From Endozoicomonas ascidiicola (GTDB taxonomy: Bacteria; Pseudomonadota; Gammaproteobacteria; Pseudomonadales; Endozoicomonadaceae), in contig NZ_LUTV01000003.1 in assembly GCF_001646945.1 (NCBI RefSeq), positions 409,466-452,616 of the forward strand: DNA of 43,151 nt, given 5' to 3'. The translations under genes and the position numbers were made by a program. Every line of letters begins with the position of its first letter. Position 1 is the stretch's first letter. Below are positions 2,599-29,012 of this stretch, one piece after another. Under the pieces are notes generated by a model, which was not told the DNA's origin, made no database searches, and saw nothing but the letters and a program-made list of their open reading frames with translations.

Positions 2599-2714
2599 AA
2601 GAGTTGTGTAGAAATAGTAAAGTGGAATTTATAAAGTGCGCTATCCCCGCTGATCCAATCCTCAGTAGTTCAGTGGCAAGTATTGTTCATACAAGCTTAA
2701 AGTACGCCCTACTT

Positions 2715-2745
2715 CTCTTTCCAGTCAAATACTGACCGGAAAGAG
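2715..2745 (-). terminator. Hairpin downstream of the BCCT gene
   Basis: Arms CTCTTTCC (2715-2722) and GGAAAGAG (2738-2745) pair perfectly and continue inward with GTCA/TGAC after one mismatch, around the loop AATAC. It lies 25 bp past the stop of the minus-strand transporter gene. The U-tract is poor, so termination may be weak. Confidence 0.5.
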
Positions 2746-2769
2746 AGTGCAACAGTATCAATGGGTTAA

Positions 2770-4347: not shown

Positions 4348-4362
4348 GGCTATTGACTGCCT

Positions 4363-5487: not shown

Positions 5488-5566
5488 GTTTTTACTCTCT
5501 AGAGGTCTTAAGTTGTTGTATCAGGCATTTTTTGCATTCTTGCCTGATTTTTGTTTAGCGAATCTT

Positions 5567-6922: not shown

Positions 6923-6944
6923 GACACACTCACAATCGCTATAA

Positions 6945-6958
6945 TCTGATATATCAGA
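6945..6958. promoter_or_regulatory. 14-bp palindrome, candidate GntR operator
   Basis: TCTGATATATCAGA is a perfect 14-bp palindrome 22 bp upstream of the oxidoreductase start and about 120 bp before the divergent GntR-family gene. Its position between the two genes fits an operator for that regulator, controlling the cassette and possibly itself. Binding is inferred. Confidence 0.5.
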
Positions 6959-7080
6959 GATATGCGAATAGTATCTTTGTGAGTTTTCAGGTTGCTGACC
7001 TACGTCAATAAAGCGTAATAAGCCTACCGGTAAATTTGTTCTGCCTTATTTTTTTGTTCCTGTTGAATAGTGATGTTTTG

Positions 7081-7719: not shown

Positions 7720-7727
7720 GCACTTGC

Positions 7728-8684
7728 TTAGCCAAGCTTTTGCAGAATCAACGCTTCTAACGCTTGTTGGTCTTTGGCAAAATTGCGAATACCTTCTGCA
7801 AGCTTTTCTGTTGCCATGGGGTCTTCATTCATGGCCCAACGGAATGCAGACTCATCCAGAACATTGTTTTGGGTATCCAGCCCTTGCTGATTTTCAAAGA
7901 GCTTCTGCTCCACTGGTGAATCAGCCTGCTCCAACATACTCAACAGGTCAGGTCCGATGGTCAGTGCATCACAGCCGGCCAGTTCCATTATTTCTCCGGT
8001 GTTACGGAAGCTCGCACCCATAACAATGGTTTTATGGCCGTGTTGCCTGAAATAATTGTAAATCCGGGTTACGGACTGTACTCCCGGGTCTTCGGCAGCT
8101 GCAAATTCCTTTTCTTCTGCTTTTTTATACCAATCCAGTATCCTGCCTACAAAAGGAGAGATCAGGTAGACACCTGCTTCAGCACAAGCCTGAGCCTGGG
8201 CAAAATTAAACAATAATGTCAGATTACAACGAACACCTTCCTGCTCAAGTATTTCAGCCGCTTTGATGCCTTCCCAAGTGGAAGCGATTTTAATCAATAC
8301 ACGCTTGGGATCTGCTCCCTGTTGCTCATACAGTTTCAACAATTCCCTGGCTTTGTTTACCGTTGCTTCGGTATTGAATGACAACCGGGCATCCACCTCT
8401 GTAGAAACCAGCCCTGGCACTTGCTGCTGGATAATCTTACCAATACCCACGGTTAACCAGTCGGCAGCATGAGTAACTTGTTCTGAAACATCATCGCTTT
8501 GCAATTTCCCATAACTGGTAGCCTCTTCCAGAAGTAACTGATAAGAAGGCAGCAGTGATGCCTTCAGAATCAGAGATGGGTTGGTGGTGGCATCCTCAGG
8601 CTGATAACGTTGTATCGCCTCAATATCTCCGGTATCGGCCACTACTTTTGTCATTTTTTTCAATTGTGCAAGTTGGTTTTGCAT
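7728..8684 (-). CDS. tal: Transaldolase
   Basis: 318 residues, matching the usual TalB length. Sequence landmarks: KVVADTGD with D17, DATTNPSLI (substrate loop), [11 protein letters not shown] with the catalytic Glu, and [12 protein letters not shown] containing the Schiff-base lysine. It transfers dihydroxyacetone between sedoheptulose-7-phosphate and erythrose-4-phosphate in the non-oxidative pentose phosphate pathway, in the cytoplasm. It lies 27 bp after xylB as the last gene of the pentose operon, where it helps drain phosphorylated pentoses into glycolysis. Its stop is 8 bp from the convergent GntR gene. Confidence 0.97.
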
Positions 8685-8711
8685 AGAATTTCTTTAACCT
8701 TCGGTAGTCAT

Positions 8712-10169
8712 TTAGAATTCGTTTTTCAGAGCGTCATATAAACGTTTAAATTTGGTATAACGATCAGCATGCGCTGCCATCTGATCTGGCTCTGGAGTTG
8801 TGATTGCATTGATTTCAGGCGGCGGGCAAATACGTTGAAGCGCCTCATCACTCAGTTCAGGTTCCAGAGAAAGCATGGCCAGACGTGCTGCCCCTAGAGC
8901 AGGACCTACATCGCTGCTCTCGCTGTATTTCAGAGGCAACCCCAGAATATTGGCCAATAGTTGCCGCCACAGGTTGCTTCTGGCACCGCCACCTATAAGA
9001 GTCAGATGTTGAGTCTGAATACCCGTCTGCAGCAGTGCGTTCAAACCATCTTTCATGCCATAACCAATGCCTTCGAGAACAGCTCTGGTTAAGTGAGGAC
9101 GTTGTGTATTGGCATTCATGCCAAAAAAGACACCGGAAGCTTTCGGGTTATTATGGGGAGTTCGCTCGCCAGAAAGGTAAGGAAGAAAGTACAGGTTGCT
9201 CTGAGATTCAATGGTTTCTGCTTCAGAGATAAGGCTGGCAACGTCTTTTGCACCTGTCAAATGGCATAACCAGTCCAGGCATGAAGCGGCGCTAAGCATA
9301 ACGGACATTAGATGCCATTTGTCGGGTAATGCGTGGCAGAAACTGTGAACACCCTGCTCAGGATTACTTCTATATTCGTTATCCACAATAAAAATGACGC
9401 CGGATGTACCCAGAGATAAAATACCGTCACCAGCATTTATTGCGCCCACGCCAATGGCACCGGCGGCATTATCGCCTGCTCCAGCAGCCACCGGAACTTC
9501 AGACATTCCCCAGTGTTGAGCGTGTTCTGGAAGTAAACGACCTGCGACCTGTGTGCCTTCATAGACATCAGGCATGGCGGATGGTTGTAGGTTGCAGTTA
9601 TTGATGGCCGTATTGGACCAGCTACGTTTTTTGACATCGAACCATAACGTACCGCTGCTGTCGGAACAGTCTGAACAAAAAGTTCCCGTCAGTTTAAAGC
9701 GCAGATAGTCTTTCGGTAAAAGGACGTGGCGGACTTTCTTAAAGATCTCAGGTTCGTGTTTATAAACCCACAACAACTTAGGTGCAGTAAACCCGGGCAT
9801 GGCAATATTGCCGGTTATCTGGCGAAGTTCAGGTTGTGCTCGTTCAAGCTCATCGCACTCTGCAAAGCTACGACCGTCATTCCATAAAATAGCGGGTCTT
9901 AATATGTTGGTCTGCTCATCCAGCAACACAGCACCATGCATTTGACCCGAAAGACCAATGGCTTTTACCCCGTTAAGGTCATATTGTTTTTTCAGTTGTT
10001 CGATGGTGTCGCAAGCGGCTTGCCACCAAGACTCCGGATTCTGTTCACTCCAGAGTGGTTCAGGTCTGGAAACAGTCAGTGCTGAATGAGCTTTGGCTAG
10101 AATATCACCCTGCTCAGAAAGCAGAATGGTTTTGACGCCAGAAGTTCCGAGGTCAATACCTAGATACAT
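8712..10169 (-). CDS. xylB: Xylulokinase (FGGY family)
   Basis: 485 residues from the ATG at 10169, chosen because the protein then begins MYLGIDLGTSGVK like E. coli XylB and AGGTG lies just upstream; a longer frame to 10214 adds an unlikely leader. FGGY landmarks: the phosphate-1 loop DLGTSGVK, WSEQNPESWW, GLSGQMHGAVLLD with substrate-binding residues, GAGDNAAGAIGVG, and TLIGGGARSNLWRQ near the end. It phosphorylates D-xylulose (family knowledge). No xylose isomerase or xylose transporter lies nearby, so in this setting it may handle a pentulose formed from another sugar. It is separated from rbsB by a hairpin (10206-10224), so expression may be attenuated relative to the transporter. Confidence 0.93.
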   Translation of the reverse strand: MYLGIDLGTSGVKTILLSEQGDILAKAHSALTVSRPEPLWSEQNPESWWQAACDTIEQLKKQYDLNGVKAIGLSGQMHGAVLLDEQTNILRPAILWNDGRSFAECDELERAQPELRQITGNIAMPGFTAPKLLWVYKHEPEIFKKVRHVLLPKDYLRFKLTGTFCSDCSDSSGTLWFDVKKRSWSNTAINNCNLQPSAMPDVYEGTQVAGRLLPEHAQHWGMSEVPVAAGAGDNAAGAIGVGAINAGDGILSLGTSGVIFIVDNEYRSNPEQGVHSFCHALPDKWHLMSVMLSAASCLDWLCHLTGAKDVASLISEAETIESQSNLYFLPYLSGERTPHNNPKASGVFFGMNANTQRPHLTRAVLEGIGYGMKDGLNALLQTGIQTQHLTLIGGGARSNLWRQLLANILGLPLKYSESSDVGPALGAARLAMLSLEPELSDEALQRICPPPEINAITTPEPDQMAAHADRYTKFKRLYDALKNEF

Positions 10170-10205
10170 GGGGCACCTGGTTAGAATAAGGATTGAAAGT
10201 AAAAT

Positions 10206-10224
10206 CGGGCTCAAGTTGAGCCCG
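10206..10224 (-). terminator. Intrinsic terminator or attenuator between rbsB and xylB
   Basis: CGGGCTC (10206-10212) and GAGCCCG (10218-10224) form a 7-bp GC-rich stem around AAGTT, extendable inward by two pairs. On the minus strand it is followed by ATTTTACTTT, a moderate U-rich tail. It sits in the gap between rbsB and xylB, so some transcripts probably end here. Confidence 0.65.
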
Positions 10225-10247
10225 GTTATGATCAGTAGGAATTGAGT

Positions 10248-11243
10248 TTAGATCCGTGGACTTTGGTTTTCCGGGTACATGACCACTTCTACCGGAATGC
10301 TGCTCTGCTCTGGCTTCTGGCCATTTTTCAGGAAGTTATCCACAATACCAATGGCTTTAGCACCGATGAATTGAAAGTCCTGCACGACAGTGATTTTCAA
10401 GCTGTCTTCGTCCACAAGGCGTTTACCTTCAGCAGAACCATCAAAGCCAATAAGGTAAAAGTTGTTCAGGTCAAAACGATTATCATTTTTGATGGCGCCC
10501 AGAGAGCCAACAGCCATGACGTCATTCTCGTTGTAGATAACGTATTTGCCATTTTGATCAAGTGCGCTCAGTCTGGACTCAAGCACACTTTGAGCAACGT
10601 CCTGAGCAAAATCGCCAGTGAGTCTTACATAACGGCTTTCGTCATTCGCCAGTGCATTCCACTCAGCACCAGCCTGTTCAGAAATCAGGTGATCGTAGAA
10701 TCCCTTAGCTCTGGTAAGGTGTGCGGAGTGACCATCCAAACCCTGCATATGAATGATACCAGCCAGTTCAGTTGGGTTGATGCCGGATTTGGTCACCAGC
10801 CATTCAGCCGCAAATTTACCACCATCTTCGTTGTCGGTAGCTACTTCCGCCAGAAAATCTACGCCATCAACCGTAGTGTCAACGGAAACCACAGAGATAC
10901 CTCTGGCAACTGCATCATTCAATACACTGGTTGTAGCATCTTTGTTCAGGGGGTTGATAACAATGGCATCAACACCTTTGGTAATAGCATCTTCAACCTG
11001 ACTGGGTTGACGGGTTGCATCGTTACCACCGTCGTATACTTCAATTTTATAACCCATTGCTTCGGAGGTTTTAACAGCGGAATCTGCCAGTACACCAAAG
11101 AATTCGTTGGAACGGTTAGAGATTAACAGGGCAATCACTTTTTCATCTTTTACCGCTTCAGTACTGGCAGTTTCTGTATCAGAGCAACCAGTCAGTCCGA
11201 ACATGGCAGCAGCCAGAGTGGAGATAGCAAGCAGCTTTTTCAT
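10248..11243 (-). CDS. rbsB: Ribose-type ABC transporter substrate-binding lipoprotein
   Basis: 331 residues. The N-terminus MKKLLAISTLAAAMFGLTGC is a lipoprotein signal peptide with lipobox LTGC, so the mature protein starts at C20 and is lipid-anchored. The periplasmic-binding fold follows: VIALLISNRSNEFFGVL, DAIVINPLNKDAT, GISVVSVDTTVDG, and FYLIGFDGSAEG late in the protein, as in RbsB. It captures a pentose, most likely ribose, and delivers it to the RbsC channel. Common RbsB proteins of enterics are soluble, so the lipobox is a small deviation. The gene is 49 bp after rbsC. The start is supported by the signal peptide. Confidence 0.92.
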   Translation of the reverse strand: MKKLLAISTLAAAMFGLTGCSDTETASTEAVKDEKVIALLISNRSNEFFGVLADSAVKTSEAMGYKIEVYDGGNDATRQPSQVEDAITKGVDAIVINPLNKDATTSVLNDAVARGISVVSVDTTVDGVDFLAEVATDNEDGGKFAAEWLVTKSGINPTELAGIIHMQGLDGHSAHLTRAKGFYDHLISEQAGAEWNALANDESRYVRLTGDFAQDVAQSVLESRLSALDQNGKYVIYNENDVMAVGSLGAIKNDNRFDLNNFYLIGFDGSAEGKRLVDEDSLKITVVQDFQFIGAKAIGIVDNFLKNGQKPEQSSIPVEVVMYPENQSPRI

Positions 11244-11292
11244 GGTAACAATCTCATATTGATAAATGTATTAATGAAAATTGGTTAGTCAG

Positions 11293-12270
11293 TTATTTCT
11301 TTTTAATGTCGATGACGACAGCCACAAGAATGACCAGACCTTTAATGACTTCCTGGTAGAAAGACGACACACCCAGCAGGTTTAATCCGTTATTGAGCAT
11401 TCCGATAATCAGTACGCCCAGTAATGTACCGGTAATCCTGCCTTTACCACCGGTCATACTGGTGCCACCGATAACGACTGCTGCAATGGCATCCAGCTCA
11501 ATGCCAATACCGGCGTTGGGGTAAATAGAGTTGTAGCGGGAGATATACAGAACTGCGGCCATGGAGGAGAGAAGCCCACAGAGAACGTATCCCCATATTT
11601 TTACTTTTTCAGTAGGGACTGTGGAAAGCCTTGCAGCTTCTTCATTACCACCGGTAGCAAAGAGGTGTCGACCAAATACGGTTTTGTTCAGCAGTACCCA
11701 GATAGCAGCAAAGATGGCCAGTAAAATCAGCATGGAAACAGGAATAATACTCAAGCTTCCACGGTTGATGAACTCTGCAGTAGAAGAGAACTGGCTGATG
11801 TTTCGTACTGGTAAACCGTTGGAGAGAATCAGTGTAATCCCCCGGTAGACGGTCATGGTAATCAACGTAGCAATAAAAGGCTGGAGTTTTACCTTGGCAA
11901 CCAGAGCGCCGTTAATGAAACCAAGCAGTACGCCCAGAGCCAGACCAACAGGAATGGCGATAGCGGATGAAACTTGAAATTCAACAATGAGTGTGCCGGT
12001 AATCAGACCCACCAACGCCAGAATGGAGCCGACAGAAAGATCAATACAGCCCAGTAGAATAACAAAGGTCATGCCAAAGGCGATCAGACCGTTGATAGAC
12101 GACTGTTTAAAAATGTTCTGAATATTATACAGCGTTAAAAAGTTTGGGTTCAGGGCGGTAAAGGTGGCACCCAGAAGCAGTAAAATAACGAATAGGCCGT
12201 ATTTTTCGTACAGCTTGAAAAAGCTCATTTTGCCTGGCGTTGGCAGTGAAGCCTGAGAAGAGATACTCAT
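11293..12270 (-). CDS. rbsC: Ribose-type ABC transporter permease
   Basis: 325 residues with about eight to ten hydrophobic segments. Family marks: LNPNFLTLYNIQNIFKQSS near the N-terminus, the Gly-rich GMTFVILLGCIDLSVGSILA, and the cytoplasmic coupling stretch AIAAVVIGGTSMTGGKGRI, then GTLLGVLIIGMLNNGLNLLG. It forms the inner-membrane channel of the ribose importer, paired with RbsA and RbsB. Its ATG overlaps the rbsA stop by one base (TAATG), indicating translational coupling. Because rbsA is interrupted upstream, expression of this gene may depend on read-through from the inserted IS. Confidence 0.95.
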   Translation of the reverse strand: MSISSQASLPTPGKMSFFKLYEKYGLFVILLLLGATFTALNPNFLTLYNIQNIFKQSSINGLIAFGMTFVILLGCIDLSVGSILALVGLITGTLIVEFQVSSAIAIPVGLALGVLLGFINGALVAKVKLQPFIATLITMTVYRGITLILSNGLPVRNISQFSSTAEFINRGSLSIIPVSMLILLAIFAAIWVLLNKTVFGRHLFATGGNEEAARLSTVPTEKVKIWGYVLCGLLSSMAAVLYISRYNSIYPNAGIGIELDAIAAVVIGGTSMTGGKGRITGTLLGVLIIGMLNNGLNLLGVSSFYQEVIKGLVILVAVVIDIKKK

Positions 12271-13613
12271 TAATGAGCTCCTGTGAAAGCTAGCTTTAAG
12301 ACTTGGTCTTGAGTCATTTGTTTAGTCGGAGAAATATTAACGATAGAGCCTTGATGCATCACCGCTAGACGGTCTGAAATTCCCATGACTTCAGACAATT
12401 CACTGGATACAACGATGATGGCAACACCCTTGCTTTTCAGTTCGTTGATGATTTCATAAATTTCTTTTTTAGCGCCGACGTCAACGCCGCGGGTAGGTTC
12501 ATCAAGAATTAGAATTTGAGGCGCAGTTTCCAACCACTTGGCGAGAACCACCTTCTGTTGATTACCGCCGCTCAGATTTTTCAGTTTTTGTTTACTGCTG
12601 CTGGTTTTAATCCGAATGTCACGAATATATTGATCAGTCAGTGACGTCAGTTTTTTATCATCCACGAAACCATTCTTTGTATGGTTGTGGAGCGAAGGCA
12701 AAGAGGTATTTTCGATCAAATCAAAATCCAGAATCAGACCTTCTTCTTTACGATCTTCCGTTACGAATGCAAGGCCCAGTTGTTTGGCAATAATCGGGCT
12801 GGAGATGGACACTGGCTGTCCATTAATGCGAATTTCACCACTGTCAACGGGCTTACTGCCGAAAATGGCATGCATCACTTCTGAGCGACCAGAGCCCATT
12901 AGCCCTGCAAAACCCAGAACCTCACCTTCTTTTAAGTCAAAAGATACGTTTTTGAAGTATTTTTCCTGTGTCAGGCCGTTAACTTCAAGAATGGTCTTTC
13001 CTGGTTTGCAGGGAACATCTGGAAAGAGGTTGTCGATGCTTTTCCCCGTCATCATTTCAACCAGATCATCTTCAGTAACCTGAGCGGTTTCTCGAGTGCC
13101 TACATAGCAACCATCTCGAAGCACTGTGATTTGGTCAGACAGTTCAAAAATTTCATTCATTCGATGAGATACGTAAAGGAAACTCACGCCTTCACTTTTT
13201 AGTTTTCTAATAATTTTAAAGAGAGATTCAATTTCTTTATTGGTCAGAGCTGCAGTGGGCTCATCAAGAATGATTAAACGAGCATTAATTAACAGCGCCT
13301 TGGCAATTTCAATCATTTGCTGGCTGCCAACACTGATATCACCCATGAGCGTGTCTGGTGATAAATGTGAGAAATTCAATTCTTTTAGAACGCCCTCACA
13401 AACCTCATTCATTCTGGTTCTATCAATAAACCCATAGCGGTTTTTAATCTCTTTACCCAGAAACATATTGTCGGCAATGGATAATTCATTAACGACATTG
13501 AGCTCCTGATGAACATAGGCAATTCCAAGTTCCTGGCTGGAGGTAATATCATTTGAATCAACAGTTACACCATCAACGGTGGCTAAGTTACCGTTAATGG
13601 TTGGAAGCACCAA
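12270..13613 (-). pseudogene. rbsA: rbsA 3' part (ATP-binding protein, cut by IS1595 insertion)
   Basis: This open frame encodes most of an RbsA-type dual ATPase: the rest of domain 1 (signature VGSQQMIEIAKALL, Walker B ARLIILDEPTAAL) and all of domain 2 (KEGEVLGFAGLMGSGRSEVM as its altered Walker A, LSGGNQQKVVLAKWL, LILDEPTRGVDVGAK). Only residues from VTVDSNDITSS onward belong to rbsA; the first 15 codons come from the IS end and its duplicated target. Walker A of domain 1 is on the other fragment (14681-14872). Removing the IS and one target copy rejoins ...DITVDG to VTVDSN... in frame, giving about 495 residues, normal for RbsA. A product from the ATG at 13613 would lack domain-1 Walker A, so transport is probably lost. 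Confidence 0.93.
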
Positions 13614-18071: not shown

Positions 18072-18467
18072 ATGCCTGTTAAAAATATTGTCCGCACTGC
18101 CCCTGCCCAACGTCACTATAAAGAAATCTCCTACGAATCACAGGCTGCCAGCTGGCTTGTGTCTGATGGCTGGGAAGTTTTTCTACCAATGATTGATCAC
18201 GATATGAAAACCGATTTACTGGTTGCGGATAAGCACAATTTTTACCGCATTCAGGTTAAGTCCCTGGATACCAACCAGGAAGATACAGTGGTTGAGAATA
18301 AGTGGGGAGATGCCGACTTGGATTACATCATATATTTCTCTCGACGCTCTCACTGGGGTTATCTGGCTCGGCCATTCCGCCAAAAAAGAAAACGGCTGAA
18401 CTCTAAAGATCATATCCGGTTCCATCAGGATCGTAAGCCGTTCCTGAAAGCATTTGAGAAGATTTGA
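18072..18467 (+). CDS. Small PD-(D/E)XK nuclease-like protein
   Basis: 131 residues. A compact PD-(D/E)XK core is visible: YESQAASWLVSDGWEVFLP (helix and strand), then MKTDLLVAD with the catalytic Asp, followed by YRIQVKSL with the QxK pair. YIIYFSRRSHWGYLARP continues the beta core, and the tail is basic. The pattern matches the small single-domain group (PDDEXK_5-like) that resembles intron-endonuclease or Holliday-junction folds. It could cut or bind DNA in a defence or mobile context; no partner is evident beyond its neighbours on the same strand. No good ribosome site precedes the ATG. Confidence 0.7.
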   Translation: MPVKNIVRTAPAQRHYKEISYESQAASWLVSDGWEVFLPMIDHDMKTDLLVADKHNFYRIQVKSLDTNQEDTVVENKWGDADLDYIIYFSRRSHWGYLARPFRQKRKRLNSKDHIRFHQDRKPFLKAFEKI

Positions 18468-18848: not shown

Positions 18849-19064
18849 ATGCGTAAATTCAGCAGTTGTAAAGAGATCGGCGCACTGGTCTCAAGAAAAG
18901 TTAATCAAGGGTGGTCATTTCAAAAAGGGAAATGTCATGGGAAACTAACGTCACCTTATGGTTCAATGATCACTGTGCCATGCTCTCCTAGCGACAGACG
19001 GGCTTTTCAGAATTTTAAACGCGACATGAAAGCCATCGAGAAGGAGTATAAAAGTGTCTGTTAA
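18849..19064 (+). CDS. HicA-like small protein without a HicB partner
   Basis: 71 residues from the ATG at 18849; a longer frame to 18810 adds a Cys-rich leader I consider unlikely. The sequence KEIGALVSRKVNQGWSFQ then KCHGKLTSPYG and ITVPCSPSDRRAFQNFKRDM fits the one-domain HicA/YcfA-like fold with a conserved His on the central strand. HicA proteins are mRNA-cleaving toxins usually paired with HicB; no HicB is adjacent. Its last 11 bases overlap the start of the ankyrin gene, so the two are probably co-translated. Whether it is a toxin or a different protein of that fold is open. Confidence 0.6.
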   Translation: MRKFSSCKEIGALVSRKVNQGWSFQKGKCHGKLTSPYGSMITVPCSPSDRRAFQNFKRDMKAIEKEYKSVC

Positions 19065-21339
19065 AATACCTGAACGCCCTTACCTGATGATTGGTGAAAT
19101 ATATCGTGGCCTTGCTGTAGCTTTAGGAACGAAAAATAAAAATTCTGATGTTGATAGAATGGCCCGTGATGGCGATTATGATCACCGCCTGAGAGAGAGG
19201 TTACTCAAAGATCTCTTTTATCAACCTCTTGCTTCACAGACAGATGAGCATTTTGCATCCTTAATATGCGAATTTATTGATTTTCTCATCGATGAATATA
19301 TTTCTCTGGTGAATAAAATTGCCCTTGATGCTATGACAAGAAAAGAGTCTCTCCCCTTATTGGTAGAGCACTTCTTTTGTCGACACACAGAATCTCTTTT
19401 ATCCTCAATTCACCGGTACTATGGCGGCCCAAACCCTGTCGATTATTGCAAAGCAAGTGATAATAATTTGATGGGTGTCGCTTGCTTATGGCTGGAAGGT
19501 AATGTCGGTTCTTTTTCATCATTTCTGACTCATGTCAGTACCAAGCAGGGCAAAGCGAAGAAAGATCAGTATCTTCGATGGAAGAAAGGAATAGAGATAC
19601 CAAAGGCAGAGTCGATTACGGACATTTTAAATGACTTCCCAGATTCGCCGGATAAAACAAGTATAAGAATCCACCTGACTGTTGCCAGAACTCTTCAGTT
19701 TTTTTTGCAAAAGTACCGTCAGTATAATTTACAAGCCCATGTCGCTGTAGGCCAGAATAAGACAGAACCTTTTGATCTCGGAATGTTTCTCTCTAAAGCC
19801 AATATTCAGGCGGCTAAGAAATATTCAGACCTTCTGTCTTTATTTGTTCCGGTATCTCAAGCCCTTCGGCGTACAGTACCCAAAATGAACAACTCCAAAG
19901 CAGAAAGCTGGGCGTTATTAGAAGCTTTTGAAAGAAAAACATCGGAAGTTGACCCATCCGGTATTACAAGGCATTTCCTAGAGTGGCAAAAAGCACGCTG
20001 GTATGTTTATGCAGGTCAGTATAAAGAAGCATTGAAGCAGTACAAGATAGCGGCAGACTATACCTTTTACAGAGCCCACAACCTATCTCAGGCCCATGGA
20101 GTAGACCTAAACCTCCATGAAATTATAAGAGAGACTATGGCATTAGCAGCAAAAGAGAAATCACGTCCGCTAATGACAAGCCTGAAAAGCCAAGCCATAA
20201 CTTTCGGATTATATGAGCAACCTAAAGGAGTTGATCCTCTTTCAAGGGCAAACAAGAAATCTAATAATCACATAATTGAAGACTGGGAAATTGAACAGTG
20301 GGATACAGGTTTCGCTCACATTTTTAAACCAGCGAATTGCTTTCCGGGATGTATTGATGAAGAAAAACATAAAATTCAGCTTCCGTTTCTACACCATGTA
20401 GAAGAAAAATATTTCAAGCGAGCCCCAGACCTGACCAATCCAGATCGTAGAATCGATGTGGGTATTTCAATTGGAGGCGAGAAACGCCGCTACCCACAGT
20501 TGATATGGCATACAGACTGTAATCATCCACATCACGTTAGGTCCCTCCTGAAAGCTGGAGCAAGGGTAGATCAGCTTTCAGATACATCAGATTCAGCACT
20601 TCTCATGGCAACCATTGAAGTTGTAAACACAGGCGATCGGCGTTGCTTTGATCTGATAAAACAATACCCTCATAAACATGAAACTATGAATATGAGGACG
20701 GATAAGAAGAAGTTGACAGTTCTTCTGGCTGCTATTGAGACGGGTCAACCTGAAATCGTAGAAACCATTCTGGACCTGGGTGCTGAAGTAGACAGGCGTG
20801 GTCATACAGACCATTCGACAGCGTTAAACCAGTGCATTAAGTATATTGGGAATGTCAAAAGTCCCCAGCAGGCACTGGCCAATATGTTGCAGTTAAACCC
20901 TGATGACCCCGTACTAATTGATGCAATTCGAAGAAACTCACATGGGATGATGGGCTTGACGGACGCGGAAGTCAGGAAAAGCCTTATTCGCTCTGTAAAT
21001 GATAAAACGTCGAGAGCTTTCCAGGAGACTATTGCTGAGTACTTTCATGAGGAACAACAAAGCAGGTTTGAATATCAAAAGCTATTTCAAATAACCAAGC
21101 TTCTACTGGAGAGAGGAGCCGATCCTGATGCTACACATAAGAGCCCTATTCCAGGTTACACACCCTTGATGCTGGCATGTGAGCTGGATGAGTCAGAACT
21201 GGTGCAGCTTATGATAGAAAAAGGTGGCGACCCATATAAAACCTATCAGCATGAACTCTATCCAATCGACTGTTGGGATATAGCCCACTATTTTGGATCA
21301 AAGTCAGTATTAGCGGTTTTCGGACACAAGAAGCAGTGA
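19054..21339 (+). CDS. Ankyrin-repeat protein with long unrecognised N-terminal region
   Basis: 761 residues, GTG start preceded by AAGGAG 7 bp upstream. Residues 1-about 470 are largely helical and unrecognised, with a TPR-like stretch (KARWYVYAGQYKEALKQYKI) around 310. From about 480 ankyrin-type repeats appear: HHVRSLLKAGARVDQLSD, LTVLLAAIETGQPEIVETIL followed by DLGAEVDRRG, and LLLERGADPDA then GYTPLMLACELDESELVQLM. Ankyrins mediate protein binding; in symbionts they are often effectors, but here the gene is coupled to the HicA-like gene and adjoins a Wadjet operon, so a defence role is also possible. No signal peptide or membrane segment is seen. Confidence 0.8.
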   Translation: MSVKIPERPYLMIGEIYRGLAVALGTKNKNSDVDRMARDGDYDHRLRERLLKDLFYQPLASQTDEHFASLICEFIDFLIDEYISLVNKIALDAMTRKESLPLLVEHFFCRHTESLLSSIHRYYGGPNPVDYCKASDNNLMGVACLWLEGNVGSFSSFLTHVSTKQGKAKKDQYLRWKKGIEIPKAESITDILNDFPDSPDKTSIRIHLTVARTLQFFLQKYRQYNLQAHVAVGQNKTEPFDLGMFLSKANIQAAKKYSDLLSLFVPVSQALRRTVPKMNNSKAESWALLEAFERKTSEVDPSGITRHFLEWQKARWYVYAGQYKEALKQYKIAADYTFYRAHNLSQAHGVDLNLHEIIRETMALAAKEKSRPLMTSLKSQAITFGLYEQPKGVDPLSRANKKSNNHIIEDWEIEQWDTGFAHIFKPANCFPGCIDEEKHKIQLPFLHHVEEKYFKRAPDLTNPDRRIDVGISIGGEKRRYPQLIWHTDCNHPHHVRSLLKAGARVDQLSDTSDSALLMATIEVVNTGDRRCFDLIKQYPHKHETMNMRTDKKKLTVLLAAIETGQPEIVETILDLGAEVDRRGHTDHSTALNQCIKYIGNVKSPQQALANMLQLNPDDPVLIDAIRRNSHGMMGLTDAEVRKSLIRSVNDKTSRAFQETIAEYFHEEQQSRFEYQKLFQITKLLLERGADPDATHKSPIPGYTPLMLACELDESELVQLMIEKGGDPYKTYQHELYPIDCWDIAHYFGSKSVLAVFGHKKQ

Positions 21340-21478: not shown

Positions 21479-22369
21479 CTAAGATTCAGGCAAAAGACAG
21501 CTATGCCCTTCTTTATTTGCACGCAGGCCGAATCCAGGAGCAATTGCTAAAGAAGGAACGTCTGATAACTCGTGCCGGTTAGCCAGATAAAGTTGGTGCT
21601 CATTGGGTGGAAGGTCGGCGTCATGTGAGGTATCAACGTGCAGCGCATTTAATAAGTACCCTACAAGTGCTTTACGAGTGGTAATGTTGCAAACTGGCTT
21701 ATCAGTAAGTCCCAGGTCCAGCTTTAGTGCTTCCGGGTTGGGGTGCTTCGGATGCGGCATTAGGGTCACAACAACCTGTTCTTCCCACTCAGTATCGATA
21801 GGAACTTTACTTGGGGTAGTCGCGAGTTGTTTAGCTGACAGTACCCTGCTGAAACGGAAAGTGCGAAAACCAACTGCATCAAAATCATATACCCTGAAAT
21901 ACCACGCTCCTGCAGATTCGAATACCGCTAATGGCTGGATGAGGCGCTCATTCCGATTTGAGCTGGCTGAATAATAGTCGAGACTTATTGCTCTGGAGAG
22001 GGTCAATGCGGTGGTAATCTTGCGAACATTTTCTACAGATAAAGTGGTTGATAGTGTTGGCAGTCGATTCAGATCTGCTTCGTGTACTTTACTGACGATT
22101 CGCTCTACCTGCCGATAAGCCAGATACCTAAGAGCGTCTTCGGGCCCATGCGAAAATACAGGTATGAAATCCTCTGTCGCAAGGTAAGCCTTCTGGTTGG
22201 CATTGTAGTTAAAGTGACTAGGGAACCGGCCTCGATACTCCGACAACGCACGGGAAGCAGTAGCAACACTGATCTCTCCATGAGCCATCAGATCTGTACG
22301 CTTAAGGCGACCATAAAAAGACAGGTGAAAATCTATAATTTGAAGGAGCTTGTCTGTTCCGCTACTCAC
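21479..22369 (-). CDS. WYL-domain transcriptional regulator (BrxR/CapW-like)
   Basis: 296 residues, GTG start with GAGG five bases upstream. About 1-75 is a winged helix (LLQIIDFHLSFYGRLKRTDL then SVATASRALSEYRGRFP). The WYL domain spans about 110-190 (LTLSRAISLDYYSASS, RLIQPLAVFESAGAWYFRV, FRTFRFSRVLSA), and a WCX-type C-terminal domain follows (VVVTLMPHPKHPNPEALKL). This three-part layout is that of BrxR/CapW repressors that control phage-defence operons. The gene is divergent from the condensin-type operon, with a 16-bp palindrome between them. It probably represses the operon and itself until a nucleic-acid or nucleotide signal binds. Confidence 0.88.
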   Translation of the reverse strand: MSSGTDKLLQIIDFHLSFYGRLKRTDLMAHGEISVATASRALSEYRGRFPSHFNYNANQKAYLATEDFIPVFSHGPEDALRYLAYRQVERIVSKVHEADLNRLPTLSTTLSVENVRKITTALTLSRAISLDYYSASSNRNERLIQPLAVFESAGAWYFRVYDFDAVGFRTFRFSRVLSAKQLATTPSKVPIDTEWEEQVVVTLMPHPKHPNPEALKLDLGLTDKPVCNITTRKALVGYLLNALHVDTSHDADLPPNEHQLYLANRHELSDVPSLAIAPGFGLRANKEGHSCLLPES

Positions 22370-22445
22370 CTTAGCCTCTTTTGAAATGTCGTTCTGAATT
22401 TATCGTATTTAACACCATGGGCTGACCTAAATCCATATCTAATGA

Positions 22446-22490
22446 TTTATATAAATATATATTCTCTGCATCAAATGATACATGTATCAT
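22446..22490. promoter_or_regulatory. WYL operator palindrome with an abutting promoter
   Basis: ATGATACATGTATCAT (22475-22490) is a perfect 16-bp palindrome in the divergent gap. On the minus strand TTGATG (22469-22474), a 17-bp spacer and TATAAA (22446-22451) form a plausible promoter for the WYL gene, so its -35 touches the palindrome. On the plus strand the palindrome lies 80 bp before jetC, and a TATTAT (22509-22514) could serve as its -10. A repressor here could control both directions. Confidence 0.6.
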
Positions 22491-22570
22491 GATATCAACA
22501 GAATCAATTATTATTCCTTGCCGAATACTGGCAAAGGACAGCTTGGTAGCAAGTAGGTGCAACGCAAGGT

Positions 22571-25500
22571 ATGTCTGAACTAATAGAAATGCTGTCGGTT
22601 GATGGCTATGCTGCCGGAAAAATTGTCTCGGTCAGGTTGGACGGTAACACGAACGTCAATGGAATTAACGCTTCAGGTAAGACAACTCTTATCAAGATGA
22701 CCCCTGCTTTCTATGCAGTGGCACCGTCAACGCTTCAGAGGCAGGATGCTAACCGACGGAGCTTTGCAGAATACTACCTGCCAAATGCAACTAGCTATCT
22801 CGCCTTTGTCTACGAGCGAGACGGTAAATTCATCACGGTTGTGATCACGCGTAAGTCTGGATCGAGCTCTCTTGTCTACCGTTTTGTTCAGGGACGGTGT
22901 CTGGAAAGCTGCTTCCTGCAAACGACTTTCGGAAAGCCGAACTTCGTCCTTAGTAGTAACTGGCGCACCCACATGTCCCTTGCAGGCTATGAAGTCTCTC
23001 GTAGTGTTGGTTATGATGACTACCGTCTCATCATTCAGTCCAGTTTGCGCTACACGAGCTCTGATCGGAAAAAGGCCGAGCTGATAAACAATTACCGTCG
23101 TTTGTACTCCTATCCAACCAATGGTCGGGACATGAGCAACATCCACCTATTGGCTAGCGCTGTGCTTCAGCGTAAACCAAGTATGGCTGCAATTAAGTCG
23201 ATTCTTGAGAGTGTACTGATCAATCAGGGCTTCATCGACAACGGCGAGTTTGGTTTGAACCTCCCAACCAAAAAGGTGGACGATTGGATCGAGAACCGAA
23301 ATGCATACTTGTTAGTGGATGAACAGCGGAGCAATATCATTGATCTTGTGGATAAACATGATTCCTATGAGGGTATTTGCGCTCGATTATCTGAGATCAA
23401 AAATCTTGCTCACCGGCGAAAAGAAAAGCTGCAAGAGGAACAAGAGTCGCTAACGGGAAAATTGCAAAAATGCAGTTCAGATATCACCAATTATAGCGAG
23501 CAAGAGCAAGCAGTCCGCACAGATGCCGGAGCGGAGATCCAACGGATTACCAAAAAAAGGACTGAGCAACAGGAGATAGCACAAGTTCTCGAACAGAAAA
23601 AAATGATGTTTGAGAGCCAGAATATACCAGAAAAGCAGGCCTTGGCTAAGCGGGTAGGGGAACTGCGAGATTTGCACCAACAAGCCGAGCAGCATTTTTA
23701 TAAGCTCGAAAGAGGGGTGTCCGATCTCACCCAGTTCTACGAAAAAGCCCTTGCCAACGCTGAGTCAGAAGCTCGTAGTAAACAATCTCAACTGACTGAG
23801 CAGCGTAAGGGCTATGAGTTAGCGCATGAGCAGAGCTTGCGAGAAGAAGAGCAGAAGTTATCACAAATCCGTGCTGATATTGGACGTCAGCTGAATAAAA
23901 GCCAAAGTGAGGTGCATCAACAGATTCAAAAACTCTCCAGCAATATAGGCAAGATTACAGGCCAGTTGGAGAATGTCGCACCATCGTCAGAGATCACCGA
24001 GCAGCTTGAGTCCTTACGCAAAGAGCGAAAGCTAGCTGAATTCAATGTGGAGAACACACGGCAAGACCTTGATGCTGCCCGAGAGGAACTCAAACGGGCG
24101 GAAATTGTGTGTGAAAAATGCATTGCTGAGCAGCGTCGCCTTCAGGATGCGATGAATCAGACTGAAGAAGCACTTAACCAGGCTCGGGAACACTTTGCAC
24201 CGAAAGATGGTTCACTGCTCTCTTTCTTGCGAGGCAACGTGCCAGGCTGGTCGGAAAATATTGCCAAAGTAATTGATCCTGATCTTCTGCTACGTAGTGA
24301 TCTTCATCCGCGACTGATTGACGGTGCACATGCACTTTACGGAGTAGGTCTGGATGTGTCTGGCATTGAGGTTCCTGAGTTTGCTTGTGATCAAGCGCTA
24401 CAGGTTGAGATCCAGCGACTTGATGAGAAACTAGCCCAACTCCATACGGACTGTGAGACACACAAAAAAATCGCTGGCTTGCGTCAGAAAGAGCATAGTC
24501 AGGCCACGAAGAACGTTGAGCGTGAAAAGTACAATCTGAAATCTTGCCAGAGTCAGCTCGCCGAAGCTAATAAAGACATCGATGAACTCAACATCCAAGC
24601 TGAACAATATATTGTCAAGCGCCGTGAAGCTTTTGAGAAGGAGAAGGCGCATCTGGATGAGCAGATGCGTGCGCAGCAGGCTCGCAACAACCATCTCCAC
24701 AAGGAGGCTGAAAAAGCACTGGCTGACCTGGGTAAACGTCACAACGAATGTGTTGCCACTGCCAAAGAACAGCTCACCGAGCAGCTCAAACTGACTGATG
24801 CCGAGATCAATGCCGCTGTAGAAGCGCTTGAAATCCGTAAGTCTGAACTCCGTGAAGAAGAGGCTGCCCAAATGCGCGAACGAGGTATCGATGAAGTCGC
24901 GCTGGGCCGTGCACGTCAGAAAGCTCAGGATGCCAGCAGCGAATACATGGACGCTAAGTCGGCTATCACCTTCATCAATCGTTATGATGAGTTTATGAAG
25001 GAACAGTGGCCTGAGTATGAAAGGCTATCTATACAGCTCACTGAGCTGAACGCAGAAATCCAGGAGCTTAAGAACAAGCGTGATCAGACGTTAGGCGAGA
25101 TACAGGTTGTGATTCACACGCTGACCTCAGAAAAGGAAGAGGTTGATGATCAGCTTTCAAAGGTCAATGACGATCTCATTATGCTAGACAACAACCTAGC
25201 CAGGATGGGGAGTATCGAGCTGCCAGACTCGGCACCACAGCTAACGACTATGCACTCCGTTATGTACTTGATGCAGCGCTGGCAGGATCAGTACCGCGAG
25301 GTCAAAGAGTTAAGGGCTACAGGTCGTGAACTGTTCGAGAAAGTCCGTAGAGCCTTTACCCGCAATGAGCGCTCGAGACCTTTTGAATTCTATCAACGAC
25401 TGAGTAGCGAGATGCGCGATACGAATAAGCGATGGGAAACTGAAGATCTCTGGGCTGTAGCAGCGCCTCACTTGCTTGAATATCTTAATAATGCGCACAA

Positions 25501-26281
25501 GAATAATGCTGACCTGCTGCGTGACAGCGCCAAGATGCTCGGTCAAAACCTAAGCGATTTCTCTGCCCAGTTGGAGCGTGTACACAAGCAAGTGAAGACT
25601 TTGGGCAACCAAGTGACCGGCCAGACGGAAACTATCTGTAGCGACTTCGAGGCTTTGGACAAGCTCAGCGTGAAGGTGTTCAGTAACATGGATAAGCTCG
25701 ACTACTACACCTCGCTCAGGTCATTCGCACAGATCCACAACGACTGGATCGCCACAAATCTCGACTCGTTGCCGAACGATGAGTATTTGCACCGGCTGGA
25801 TGGCATCAAGAACATGATTGAGAAGTCTGGTCTGACGGTAAAAGTTCAGGATAGCTTCGGTATCGAGGTGCGTATCATTGACCAAGGGATAGAAAAGATC
25901 GCTCGTCGTGACAAGGATATGGACGGGATATCGTCTAACGGTGTTAGCTATCTGATCATCATCTTAATTTACAATGCACTGGTGAACCTGTTGCGAGGTG
26001 GTGCTGAAGACATACTGGTGTGGCCAATCGATGAGCTCAAGGACTTTGATCTCAATAATACCAGAGCCCTGATCGGGCAGCTGAACGGTGACAACATCCG
26101 TATTTTCTCGGCATTCCCCGATCCTGACCCTGCAGTACTGCGCTACTTTCAGCACCTGTATCAGGCCAAGGGGCGGAAAGGTTCCAATAAGCGGAAGTTG
26201 GTGCGTTTTGCAGAGGTCGACGTGCCTAGCGCCACCGATGATCTTAAGTCAATAATGACCACGCCCAAACCCAACAACTAA
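22571..26281 (+). CDS. jetC: JetC: SMC/MukB-like ATPase of a Wadjet system
   Basis: 1236 residues. The N-terminal head has Walker A GINASGKTTLIKM near 31-43. A very long coiled coil runs from about 270 to 1000, rich in Glu/Gln/Arg heptads, broken near 550-610 by a hinge-like globular part (RGNVPGWSENIAKVIDP, LHPRLIDGAHALYGVGLDVS). The C-terminal head has the signature-like GISSNGVSYLIIILIY (about 1120) and Walker B ILVWPIDELKDFDLNN (about 1147), the WPxDE form of JetC/MksB proteins. Together with JetB, JetA and JetD it should form a loop-extruding complex that recognises small circular plasmids for cleavage. It is the first gene of the operon here, instead of the third. The start is uncertain; an ATG at 22589 is an alternative. 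Confidence 0.92.
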   Translation: MSELIEMLSVDGYAAGKIVSVRLDGNTNVNGINASGKTTLIKMTPAFYAVAPSTLQRQDANRRSFAEYYLPNATSYLAFVYERDGKFITVVITRKSGSSSLVYRFVQGRCLESCFLQTTFGKPNFVLSSNWRTHMSLAGYEVSRSVGYDDYRLIIQSSLRYTSSDRKKAELINNYRRLYSYPTNGRDMSNIHLLASAVLQRKPSMAAIKSILESVLINQGFIDNGEFGLNLPTKKVDDWIENRNAYLLVDEQRSNIIDLVDKHDSYEGICARLSEIKNLAHRRKEKLQEEQESLTGKLQKCSSDITNYSEQEQAVRTDAGAEIQRITKKRTEQQEIAQVLEQKKMMFESQNIPEKQALAKRVGELRDLHQQAEQHFYKLERGVSDLTQFYEKALANAESEARSKQSQLTEQRKGYELAHEQSLREEEQKLSQIRADIGRQLNKSQSEVHQQIQKLSSNIGKITGQLENVAPSSEITEQLESLRKERKLAEFNVENTRQDLDAAREELKRAEIVCEKCIAEQRRLQDAMNQTEEALNQAREHFAPKDGSLLSFLRGNVPGWSENIAKVIDPDLLLRSDLHPRLIDGAHALYGVGLDVSGIEVPEFACDQALQVEIQRLDEKLAQLHTDCETHKKIAGLRQKEHSQATKNVEREKYNLKSCQSQLAEANKDIDELNIQAEQYIVKRREAFEKEKAHLDEQMRAQQARNNHLHKEAEKALADLGKRHNECVATAKEQLTEQLKLTDAEINAAVEALEIRKSELREEEAAQMRERGIDEVALGRARQKAQDASSEYMDAKSAITFINRYDEFMKEQWPEYERLSIQLTELNAEIQELKNKRDQTLGEIQVVIHTLTSEKEEVDDQLSKVNDDLIMLDNNLARMGSIELPDSAPQLTTMHSVMYLMQRWQDQYREVKELRATGRELFEKVRRAFTRNERSRPFEFYQRLSSEMRDTNKRWETEDLWAVAAPHLLEYLNNAHKNNADLLRDSAKMLGQNLSDFSAQLERVHKQVKTLGNQVTGQTETICSDFEALDKLSVKVFSNMDKLDYYTSLRSFAQIHNDWIATNLDSLPNDEYLHRLDGIKNMIEKSGLTVKVQDSFGIEVRIIDQGIEKIARRDKDMDGISSNGVSYLIIILIYNALVNLLRGGAEDILVWPIDELKDFDLNNTRALIGQLNGDNIRIFSAFPDPDPAVLRYFQHLYQAKGRKGSNKRKLVRFAEVDVPSATDDLKSIMTTPKPNN

Positions 26282-26308
26282 AAGCCTCTGGCAACGTAAG
26301 GAGGCTCT

Positions 26309-26935
26309 ATGCTTCGAAGAATTTTAGAACTGTTCCGCAGCGGCGAGATGATCTGCCCGGTCAGCTATCCCTCTGAGTTTCAGGAGCTGGAGGATGGTCT
26401 AGCTTCGCAGGTCGAGTCTGCATTGGCACCATATGGCCGCAAGCTTGTGCAAAAAGACGACCTGTACTACTGCAGCTATGCCAATGGTGACCAAAGGACA
26501 GACCGTGCTGCAATGCGTGAACAGTTTCGGGTGATCCGTGACTCAGTTGCACCTATTATCGATTTCATTACTCTCGTAATCCGGGCCGAAGGACGTGGAG
26601 AGACCCTTCGTCCAACTGATACCATCAAGCTGCCTGACCTGTTGAAGAAAATCAGTGACGAGGCTGCTTACCAGAAAGAGCTTGATCGTCTCAGTGCTCA
26701 CAAGGGCTTCAACTCCCACAAGGCATCGCCAAACATGATGGATAGGCTTAACAAGATTTTTGAGGGCCTTCAGGGTATGGGCTACCTATCACTCAGCAAT
26801 GGCGAAGCCCAGATTTATACTGTGACTGGGCGTATTGAGCACTTTTACGAGGTGCTGGCTTTCATAGCTGAGCATGAAGAGATCCCTCTGGATGGTGAAG
26901 AAGATCAGCCTCGTCAAGGAGGGCTGGAAGTGTGA
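26309..26935 (+). CDS. jetB: JetB: MukE-like subunit of the Wadjet complex
   Basis: 208 residues, a typical JetB size, with an ideal ribosome site (AAGGAGG) five bases before the ATG. The protein is soluble and predicted mixed helical with winged-helix character: FRSGEMICPVSYPSEFQELE at the N-terminus, LVQKDDLYYCSYANGD, FITLVIRAEGRGETLRP, then LNKIFEGLQGMGYLSLSNG and IYTVTGRIEHFYEVLAFIAE at the end. In Wadjet, JetB bridges the kleisin JetA and the SMC heads, as MukE does. The assignment rests on position between the SMC and kleisin genes plus size and fold; identity by sequence alone is weaker. Confidence 0.82.
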   Translation: MLRRILELFRSGEMICPVSYPSEFQELEDGLASQVESALAPYGRKLVQKDDLYYCSYANGDQRTDRAAMREQFRVIRDSVAPIIDFITLVIRAEGRGETLRPTDTIKLPDLLKKISDEAAYQKELDRLSAHKGFNSHKASPNMMDRLNKIFEGLQGMGYLSLSNGEAQIYTVTGRIEHFYEVLAFIAEHEEIPLDGEEDQPRQGGLEV

Positions 26936-28155
26936 GTACTACTGCAGAGCAGTGGCGTCAGCTTGGTAAAGCATTTATCGACAACGCTGATGAGCTGGTT
27001 TCTCTTGAGTCTAACGATGGTGAAGGCGTTACCTTCGAGGATCTGAAAAAAACATTTCGCTTCCTCGAACATTATGGATTTGTCGAAGGTCATAATACTA
27101 TTGGGCTGTCACCGACCCCGCTGTTATTAGATATTGCATCAGCTCTATCGAGAGAAGAGACACGTCGGCGTGTAGTTCCTGATGTTGATGACTGGTTGGC
27201 ACAGCTCCGTCTTGACACTGGCCACTATCATGCGGCACTGAGCCTTGGTGACGACAAAGACATGCGCCGCTATCTGCAGAATATTCGCAACTCAGTGCTT
27301 CGCATGCGATTCGCCCTGAGGCAGGAGATTCATTCAATCCAGCACTTTTTGCAGACCCAGTTTGGGCATGTGGCGACGATAAACCAGAAAATCGCTGAAA
27401 ATCGCTACCTGATCGAGCGAACGAGTCAGCTGACCGCTCGTCTCTTATTCATCAACGACAAAGGGCTTGGTAGTCTGGCCAATGACAACAGTGTGCTTCT
27501 GCGCGTATTAGTGCTTCGCTTTCTACCTGACATCCAGCAGTTTCGTGAAGAAATTCTGGCAATAATTCCCCAGCTGGAAAAAATGCTTTGGTCCTTTCGT
27601 AAACAGGATGAAAAAACGCGCTGTTTGTGGGCGGTCAGTCGGCATCTCAGTCAAGGAGAGAGTCTGCTCGACAGGGATCTGGACTCTTTGGAGCTACTCA
27701 ACTCACCATTTAATATACTGCAGTCCGAACCAGACGTAGCTGGGATTAATGTCGATGACCCTGAGTTGCAGGAAGTGCTGATCGATTTGGTAAAACGCCT
27801 ACCGGAACGCGCTGGACTATCCGAGGAAGGAGCAAAGAGGGAGGAAGTTGGGCTTTATGATCCCGAAGATGACGATGATGATGAGGAGGAACACATAGAG
27901 CCGTGTTTCCTGCTTCCGCATCGACGCGCGTTCATAGCATCTGCGATACAGCACCAGTGGAGTGCCAAGCGATACTGGGATAAGGAAGGGGAAGCAGGAG
28001 TTCCTTATCCTGTGTGGCTGCAATGGATCTACAGTGAGCTTGATGGGGAGCCGGGCTTCAATATGGAACTGACCACTATTGAGGGTGGCGAGTTTGTTGG
28101 CAACGTTCTGATTAGCGACCTGACGATCGCACCCGAGAAGGAGGCTACCCTGTGA
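26932..28155 (+). CDS. jetA: JetA: kleisin (MukF-like) subunit of the Wadjet complex
   Basis: 407 residues. The start GTG overlaps the jetB stop (GTGA), so translation is coupled. The N-terminus has a winged-helix segment (FEDLKKTFRFLEHYGFVEG), followed by helical stretches (YLQNIRNSVLRMRFALRQEI, LEKMLWSFRKQDEKTR). A very acidic linker lies near 305-320 (DPEDDDDDEEEH), and the C-terminal winged-helix-like part contains AIQHQWSAKRYWDKEGE and VWLQWIYSELDG. Kleisins close the SMC ring by contacting both heads. The call rests on operon position and this architecture; it is shorter than some JetA proteins. Confidence 0.8.
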   Translation: MSTTAEQWRQLGKAFIDNADELVSLESNDGEGVTFEDLKKTFRFLEHYGFVEGHNTIGLSPTPLLLDIASALSREETRRRVVPDVDDWLAQLRLDTGHYHAALSLGDDKDMRRYLQNIRNSVLRMRFALRQEIHSIQHFLQTQFGHVATINQKIAENRYLIERTSQLTARLLFINDKGLGSLANDNSVLLRVLVLRFLPDIQQFREEILAIIPQLEKMLWSFRKQDEKTRCLWAVSRHLSQGESLLDRDLDSLELLNSPFNILQSEPDVAGINVDDPELQEVLIDLVKRLPERAGLSEEGAKREEVGLYDPEDDDDDEEEHIEPCFLLPHRRAFIASAIQHQWSAKRYWDKEGEAGVPYPVWLQWIYSELDGEPGFNMELTTIEGGEFVGNVLISDLTIAPEKEATL

Positions 28156-29012
28156 TCACGCGAGCACTTTACAAATCCATCGAGGATGTTCTTTTAGTTG
28201 CCAAGGCACAGGTTAAGCTATCCGCCAACTGGCGCACCTTGCATGATGAATACGGTATTGGACTCATCTCACCCTGTAAAGGGGTTTTGAAACTGTCTTC
28301 TACTGACAGAATGGCACTGGTCAACTGGGTGATAAGGCAAACGGGTGTCGATCCAAGACAGGTCAGCTATGAGCAGATGATTAGCCGTTCCCGCACTCAG
28401 GCTGCAGGTGTCACTAATGAAGAGAAAGCATTGTCAGCGGATCCCCGAGCGGATCATGTTGAGGTGCGCAGTCTTAACGGAATTGTTGGCAAGTGTTGCC
28501 ATCCTGCCGATGGCTATCTCGGCCTGCGGGTAGCAGAAACGCTCACTATTCCTTTCACCTATCTGATAACAGTAGAGAACTTCGATACTTTCATAAGCCT
28601 TCATGCAGAGTACCTGCCCATGTTCCCAAAGGACAATACACTACTGGTGTTTCGTGGTGATAACAAAGCGCACCCAGGTGCGGTCAAGAAGCTGTTGGAG
28701 CAAACGTCAGCTCATCGCGTGCATTATGGCGACTATGATAGTGCTGGTCTGAGAATTGGGCTCAACATGGGGAGCGGAACCACTCTGGTGCTACCTGATC
28801 TAGAACATATTACTGGAAAAGAATTGGCCAAGCTGAGCAAGCTTAGTGCCTTTGCCAAACAAGAGGAAATTCTGCGACAGCTTGAGTGTCACCCAGAAAG
28901 CTTACCTGCTAAGATCGCGATACATTTGCAGATCATTCGTGATCACAATATTGCGGTAACACAGGAATCACTTATGGCAAATCGAGTACCTCTAACGCTA
29001 TTGCCTACTTGA
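28152..29012 (+). CDS. jetD: JetD: Toprim nuclease of the Wadjet complex (short)
   Basis: 286 residues; GTG start overlaps the jetA stop (GTGA). The C-terminal half is a Toprim domain: YLITVENFDTFISLH (acidic Glu of motif 1), NTLLVFRGDNKAHPG, then VHYGDYDSAGLRIGLN with the metal-binding DxD. The N-terminal region (RALYKSIEDVLLVAKAQVKL, NWRTLHDEYGIG) corresponds to the JetD arm. JetD makes the double-strand cut on plasmid DNA in Wadjet. Usual JetD proteins are longer (about 350-420 residues, from memory), so this looks trimmed in the N-terminal part, although the catalytic residues are present. Last gene of the operon. Confidence 0.87.
   Translation: MITRALYKSIEDVLLVAKAQVKLSANWRTLHDEYGIGLISPCKGVLKLSSTDRMALVNWVIRQTGVDPRQVSYEQMISRSRTQAAGVTNEEKALSADPRADHVEVRSLNGIVGKCCHPADGYLGLRVAETLTIPFTYLITVENFDTFISLHAEYLPMFPKDNTLLVFRGDNKAHPGAVKKLLEQTSAHRVHYGDYDSAGLRIGLNMGSGTTLVLPDLEHITGKELAKLSKLSAFAKQEEILRQLECHPESLPAKIAIHLQIIRDHNIAVTQESLMANRVPLTLLPT

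Follow-up and report, generated by a model that had tools for sequence, protein, structure and literature searches.

A C-B-A-D gene order marks a clade of Wadjet-like SMC operons represented in Endozoicomonas ascidiicola

The window analysed here, a stretch of 43,151 nucleotides from Endozoicomonas ascidiicola (contig NZ_LUTV01000003.1), carries at positions 22571–29012 a four-gene operon that very probably encodes a structural maintenance of chromosomes (SMC) DNA-restriction complex of the Wadjet/MksBEFG group, as judged from its homologies and predicted folds. Its genes run jetC-jetB-jetA-jetD (C-B-A-D), and this order is the signature of one clade, above chance recurrence, in which it accompanies an SMC protein of the Pfam family DUF3584 and a short predicted nuclease of the family DUF7281. 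The original prediction had named SMC, MukE-like, kleisin-like and Toprim genes in this order and held that the order was no accident of the window. Open reading frames (ORFs) and Pfam matches bear out the gene content, with the kleisin suggested weakly by its fold, and the order recurs in most of the related loci that we read.

The C-B-A-D operon and its clade

The operon in the window consists of the following genes.

22571..26281, + strand: jetC-like SMC ATPase (Pfam DUF3584), 1236 amino acids (aa), from ORF and Pfam match
26309..26935, + strand: jetB-like kleisin-interacting tandem winged-helix (KITE) subunit of the MksE family, 208 aa, from ORF and Pfam match
26932..28155, + strand: candidate jetA-like kleisin, weakly MukF-like by predicted fold, 407 aa
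28152..29012, + strand: jetD/MksG-like Toprim nuclease (Pfam DUF7281), short form, 286 aa

All four ORFs are intact and form one tightly coupled unit. A gap of 27 bases separates jetC from jetB, which has a strong ribosome-binding site (TAAGGAGG) ahead of it, and the jetB/jetA and jetA/jetD junctions are both GTGA overlaps, as had been predicted.

Across 38 loci of the SMC group that we chose for a tally (30 placed in the SMC tree and eight assigned by similarity only, namely L004, L005, L037, L038, L042, L044, L078 and L174), loci of other orders being excluded because the tree places them outside the clade, C-B-A-D stands on one strand in 32, the window included. Three further loci show C-B-A, two of them without D downstream (L075 and L076) and one stopping near a contig edge (L038), and the remaining three show only C, one being cut (L042) and two being fragments (L078 and L174). 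D is retained in 32 of the 34 loci that have C-B-A and readable downstream DNA. The JetC search profile was built iteratively and also captures short-SMC, D-C-A-B and L173 sequences. Dropped before counting were L001 and L006–L020 (short or duplicate stretches), as well as L055–L063 and L119–L126 (fragments, or short pieces of loci that serve elsewhere in the analysis); L022 and L034 are the same contig and were counted once. L008 and L029, whose D or A-D genes lie at the edge of a contig, and L032, a decayed piece of D, stand outside the 38, and L106, L108 and L073 received no gene-by-gene assignment.

A maximum-likelihood tree of SMC heads gathers 30 of its 53 tips in a single clade, with support of 97.6/97 (Shimodaira–Hasegawa-like approximate likelihood ratio test/ultrafast bootstrap); 28 of these tree-placed loci read C-B-A-D and two read C-B-A. 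The same tree resolves short-SMC operons of order A-B-C-D (5 tips), D-C-A-B operons (3) and type I Wadjet (12) as separate clades, and a smaller tree of 46 tips supports the C-B-A-D clade at 98.1/99. The motif WxxDEL at the Walker B/D-loop occurs in 22 of the 30 SMC proteins of the clade and in none of the other 23 in the tree. The earlier suggestion of a distinct subtype thus holds as far as a separate branch is concerned, whereas the order is a clade-wide rule and not a peculiarity of this operon.

Subunits and relation to known SMC operons

JetC matches DUF3584 (PF12128) over residues 11–1198 with an E-value of 1.7e-166 (556 bits against a cut-off of 31) and displays a Walker A motif (GINASGKT), a signature-like ISSNG and a Walker B/D-loop reading WPIDEL. 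JetB matches MksE (PF21980) at 1.8e-7, and its 32.1 bits exceed the curated cut-off of 27. JetD matches DUF7281 at 5.1e-24 and gave no DUF3322 match in the Pfam search. Its AlphaFold model is strongly matched by MksG, JetD and topoisomerase VI A (Topo VI-A) folds (8b7f, 7til), and its profile reached 7til at an E-value of 0.05 among Protein Data Bank (PDB) sequences. The alignment to 8b7f begins near residue 100 of JetD, as against residue 217 of 8b7f, and the model has a short, helix-strand N terminus. Residues E142, D194 and D196 are invariant in 29 of 29 aligned clade members; they correspond to the catalytic acidic residues of Toprim enzymes, which agrees with the fold match.

JetA found no family in the Pfam search. 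Its AlphaFold model comprises an N-terminal domain with a helical bundle to about residue 240, a low-confidence linker at about 245–325 and a C-terminal helical/beta domain, and the top Foldseek matches are MukBEF/MukF chains, weak ones with E-values of 0.02 upward. The model weakly suggests that JetA may be a MukF-like kleisin. Hence the proposed kinship with MukE and kleisin families is upheld for JetB by Pfam and tentatively for JetA by fold and profile comparison.

That the genes are those of Wadjet holds for their composition, and less so for their sequences as seen by the type I–III models of PADLOC-DB (2023). For the window the matches are JetC2 (0.0022) and JetD3 (4e-5); its A and B match no Jet model at an E-value of 1, nor does its SMC protein match JetC3 at 1. 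The operon L002 matches JetB1 at 3e-4, its A, C and D giving no Jet match at 0.1, and L127 matches JetC1 at 0.0065 and JetD3 at 4.1e-6, its A and B being unmatched at 0.01. The weak or absent matches in these three operons suggest a relative rather than a member of types I–III. C and D of the phage-borne operon L170 gave no PADLOC-DB match at 0.001.

The prediction that the order departs from the A-B-C-D of described types stands against nine loci of the type I clade (L109–L116 and L118) and one type II operon (L074), in all of which the order is A-B-C-D, position and length having served to identify A and B; the comparison covers types I and II, and order is not known to be a defining trait of Wadjet. 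Only L104, L109, L112, L113 and L074 were typed with PADLOC. For type III, a search of 185 gammaproteobacteria with PDLC00594 (JetD3) gave no match at 1e-8, a search in which no control matched and which does not show absence. The three Wadjet types already differ in operon organisation, according to excerpts of a 2025 paper (PMC12647877); the papers cited here by PMC number are all cited for excerpts.

The closest likeness in composition is to type I Wadjet and MksBEFG of Corynebacterium glutamicum, whose single operon likewise encodes an SMC protein, a KITE subunit, a kleisin and a Topo VI-A-like Toprim nuclease, and which share the fold (8b7f, 7til) and catalytic residues of JetD. The order there is A-B-C-D (mksFEBG; PMC10123090) instead of C-B-A-D. 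Type I JetD measures about 375–430 aa in the loci read, against 286 aa in the window, and the D-loop reads DEA in 12 of 12 type I SMC proteins, whereas in the C-B-A-D clade DEA occurs in 3 of 30 and WxxDEL prevails (22 of 30).

Other SMC operons resemble the clade in part. Short-SMC, MksFEBG-like operons (L026, L027, L028, L030 and L133) have an MksE subunit in both of those tested with Pfam (L027 and L030) and a DUF7281 match in D, which for L030 lies below the cut-off; they differ in their A-B-C-D order, an SMC protein of 917–936 aa and a clade of their own (97.1/99). We presume these short-SMC operons to be like MksBEF of Pseudomonas aeruginosa PAO1. D-C-A-B operons (L135, L136 and L147) also combine an SMC protein, a kleisin-like protein, MksE and a short Toprim nuclease, the last gene being MksE by Pfam in three of three, and differ in order, in SMC length (956–1012 aa) and in forming their own clade (100/100). 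MukBEF shares the kleisin–KITE–SMC composition and the weak MukF likeness of the JetA model; it differs in lacking a nuclease and in its operon, mukFEB (PMC7617805). No MukB match was found in eight genomes that each carry a member of the C-B-A-D clade. A Persicobacter locus (L173) reads A-B-C, with MksE second and no adjoining D, and loci with the Pfam JetA family PF18982 read A-B-C(-D) by eye and were not typed. Two loci with a PF18982 JetA (L162 and L163) read A-B-C, without an adjoining D-like ORF by eye and with no search made for D.

Regulator, genomic setting and distribution

Two further features lie upstream of jetC.

21479..22369, − strand: divergently oriented gene for a BrxR/CapW-family transcription factor with a WYL domain, which may repress the operon
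22370..22570: intergenic region of 201 bases common to the WYL gene and jetC, likely operator/promoter

By sequence comparison the WYL protein is a BrxR/CapW homologue over its full length. It matches 7qfz, a WYL domain-containing protein that we take to be BrxR, at 2.1e-24 over residues 8–281, as well as CapW (7tb6, 1.7e-20) and BrxR (7t8k, 8.4e-12). A search of the intergenic region for an operator palindrome returned only a short AT palindrome (22454–22463). WYL genes also accompany the D-C-A-B operon L147, the short-SMC operon L030 and the type I locus L113, and BrxR-family genes near Wadjet systems have been reported previously (PMC9122601). Just upstream of the WYL gene lie genes for an ankyrin-repeat protein (19054–21339) and a PD-(D/E)XK-like protein (18072–18467).

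The operon lies 2.2–2.5 kilobases (kb) from a conserved ferredoxin/coaD pair, a site that we examined in 5 of 11 congeners. The nearest congener found (G658) has a CoaD 99% identical to that of the window and keeps, on the same side of coaD, a tetratricopeptide repeat (TPR) gene at 97.7% DNA identity. At the same site it has a WYL gene and a D-C-A-B operon and, farther out, the cyclase and phospholipase of a cyclic-oligonucleotide-based anti-phage signalling system (CBASS).

L147, G658:C26:27600-47500, 808-10158: coaD-adjacent site with WYL, D-C-A-B and CBASS genes

The other four congeners gave no match to A–D in 20-kb stretches at coaD. The locus looks like a defence site that exchanges SMC nucleases; since SMC operons occupy it in two species only, we infer replacement rather than observe it.

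Elsewhere in the same genome, L104 (C24:221000-236000) carries type I jetB-jetC-jetD with a C–D gap of about 970 bases. A tblastn search with ten type I queries found no jetA in the fetched stretch, which contains 1572 masked bases. A complete type I Wadjet in this genome, considered as a candidate, was rejected because only B, C and D are seen at L104, which is probably a decayed type I remnant. A second locus, L105 (C24:143000-158000), reads A-B-C-D, with A and B identified from their position, and encodes an SMC-like protein of 1617 aa; its nuclease is JetD1-like (2.2e-22) and its SMC protein has no PADLOC match at 1e-5.

The family is rare but broadly spread: it is found in gamma- and betaproteobacteria and extends to plasmids and a single phage record. 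PF12128 scored above its cut-off in 10 of 369 gammaproteobacterial genomes and DUF7281 was matched in 11 of 369; a scan of bacterial genomes contributed 12 loci, and further relatives came from samples of gammaproteobacteria and of the phylum. Among 72,556 plasmid records the SMC protein was matched in 38, of which 11 were read. Carriage on some plasmids suggests a use in competition among mobile elements.

The 209-kb record of Dolichospermum phage Dfl-JY45 (L170) holds a complete C-B-A-D operon at 5968–12323. On an IncC-type plasmid (L005, 278–10767) the SMC gene is split by an IS256-like element, and the operon lies near a WYL gene and a TnsD-family, Tn7-like gene, so that it may be transposon cargo. 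The 40-kb Acinetobacter plasmid pACI-b25a (L169) carries the operon and is itself within the size range reported to be restricted by Wadjet, under 50–100 kb (PMC10586767), which makes it a promising example for the question of self-avoidance. Of 20 plasmid records that contain 80% or more of the SMC protein, 19 measure at least 107 kb and one measures 40 kb, a count without background control; one of the 20 is L173, which lies outside the clade and reads A-B-C without an adjoining D. The idea of self-avoidance based on these sizes was for that reason not used as evidence.

Mechanism, alternatives and significance

By analogy with type I Wadjet, which extrudes loops of circular DNA before JetD cuts it (PMC10586767, PMC12647877), JetC, JetB and JetA would form a dimeric, ATP-driven motor that draws in circular DNA by loop extrusion; JetD would cut at the end of extrusion and thereby eliminate plasmids or other circular DNA that invade the cell. 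The WYL protein, if it behaves like BrxR and CapW, would repress the operon and release it upon a signal of DNA stress or infection. The activity of clade members as nuclease systems is likewise deduced from these homologies.

Several observations weigh against this interpretation or against the unity of the clade. FastTree gave the C-B-A-D clade of SMC heads a local support of only 0.70. The JetD tree, from which the D of L117 was omitted, backed the clade in two earlier versions (0.92 and 90.9/88) and no longer showed it once six sequences were added; L132 entered the trees with C and D alone. None of the Foldseek matches of JetA reaches 0.001, unrelated helical bundles tie with them in Z, and a profile comparison with type I JetA yielded a probability of only 17.8%. 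Profiles of JetC, JetB and JetA searched against PDB sequences retrieved no SMC relatives, only coiled-coil or chance matches. WYL genes stand by only 4 of the 27 C-B-A-D-type loci scanned (the window, L005, L035 and L129), several of which had little upstream DNA. L075 and L076, finally, have no D adjoining the operon and no DUF7281 match anywhere in their genomes, and part of the clade may therefore do something other than cut DNA.

These two loci also speak for a quite unlikely alternative, in which the complex is a condensin that maintains the chromosome or the carrying replicon, with D a topoisomerase-like or accessory enzyme and not a restriction nuclease. MksBEF of PAO1 is such a DNA-maintenance condensin, like MukBEF, and the carriers include large plasmids, which might use a condensin of their own; the DUF7281-free genomes of L075 and L076 were not searched for other JetD families. 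Against it stand a canonical SMC protein encoded in six of six genomes tested, the retention of D in 32 of the 34 readable C-B-A loci, and the position of the operon at a variable site beside a BrxR/CapW-type gene, a site occupied in the nearest congener by another SMC operon next to CBASS. That the nuclease-free complex of L075 or L076 is its host's only condensin was rejected, as a canonical SMC protein is present there (MukB is absent).

We also consider it unlikely that the operon belongs, as a divergent member missed by the 2023 PADLOC models, to a published Wadjet type, most plausibly type III. The best PADLOC match of D is indeed the JetD3 model, both in the window and in L127, and type III itself did not turn up when a single JetD3 model was run on the 185 genomes, a search in which no control matched. 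The JetD3 match nevertheless spans only the Toprim region (residues 137–206), the window's SMC protein has no JetC3 match at an E-value of 1, and the SMC-head tree splits the clade from type I and from the single type II sequence. Somewhat less doubtful is an anti-phage rather than anti-plasmid system built of the same parts: the WYL neighbour belongs to a family that controls bacteriophage exclusion (BREX) and CBASS systems, and CBASS genes lie beside the alternative operon of the nearest congener. Characterised Wadjet systems, however, target plasmids (PMC10586767, PMC12287153), and the sequence offers nothing to tell the two targets apart. Restriction of DNA by an SMC complex of the Wadjet/MksBEFG group remains our preferred reading.

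DUF3584 was not linked to Wadjet in the literature searched, where its mentions include a phage and archaeal plasmids, and DUF7281 was not mentioned in it. A 2025 study of MukBEF surveyed the Wadjet group with profiles and, in the excerpts cited, required consecutive matches and no order (PMC7617805), so that its data table may list the clade.

More broadly, there is a serious, if less than even, chance that the Wadjet/Mks group has at least three stable, clade-specific orders (A-B-C-D, C-B-A-D and D-C-A-B), that C-B-A-D represents a separate, unannotated and inducible SMC-nuclease type with which plasmids, phages and chromosomes alike attack rival circular DNA, and that WYL-controlled SMC nucleases swap at one coaD-adjacent site in Endozoicomonas. 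In the operons tested, the 2023 PADLOC models miss this SMC-nuclease branch, parts of which carry the label 'unknown function' (DUF3584, DUF7281). If active, it would be a Wadjet with a shorter nuclease, a different gene order and a BrxR/CapW-type switch, and would help to address why anti-plasmid machinery is borne by some plasmids and how these avoid it. Its nuclease-free members would provide a test of how a defence complex may turn into a condensin, or the reverse.
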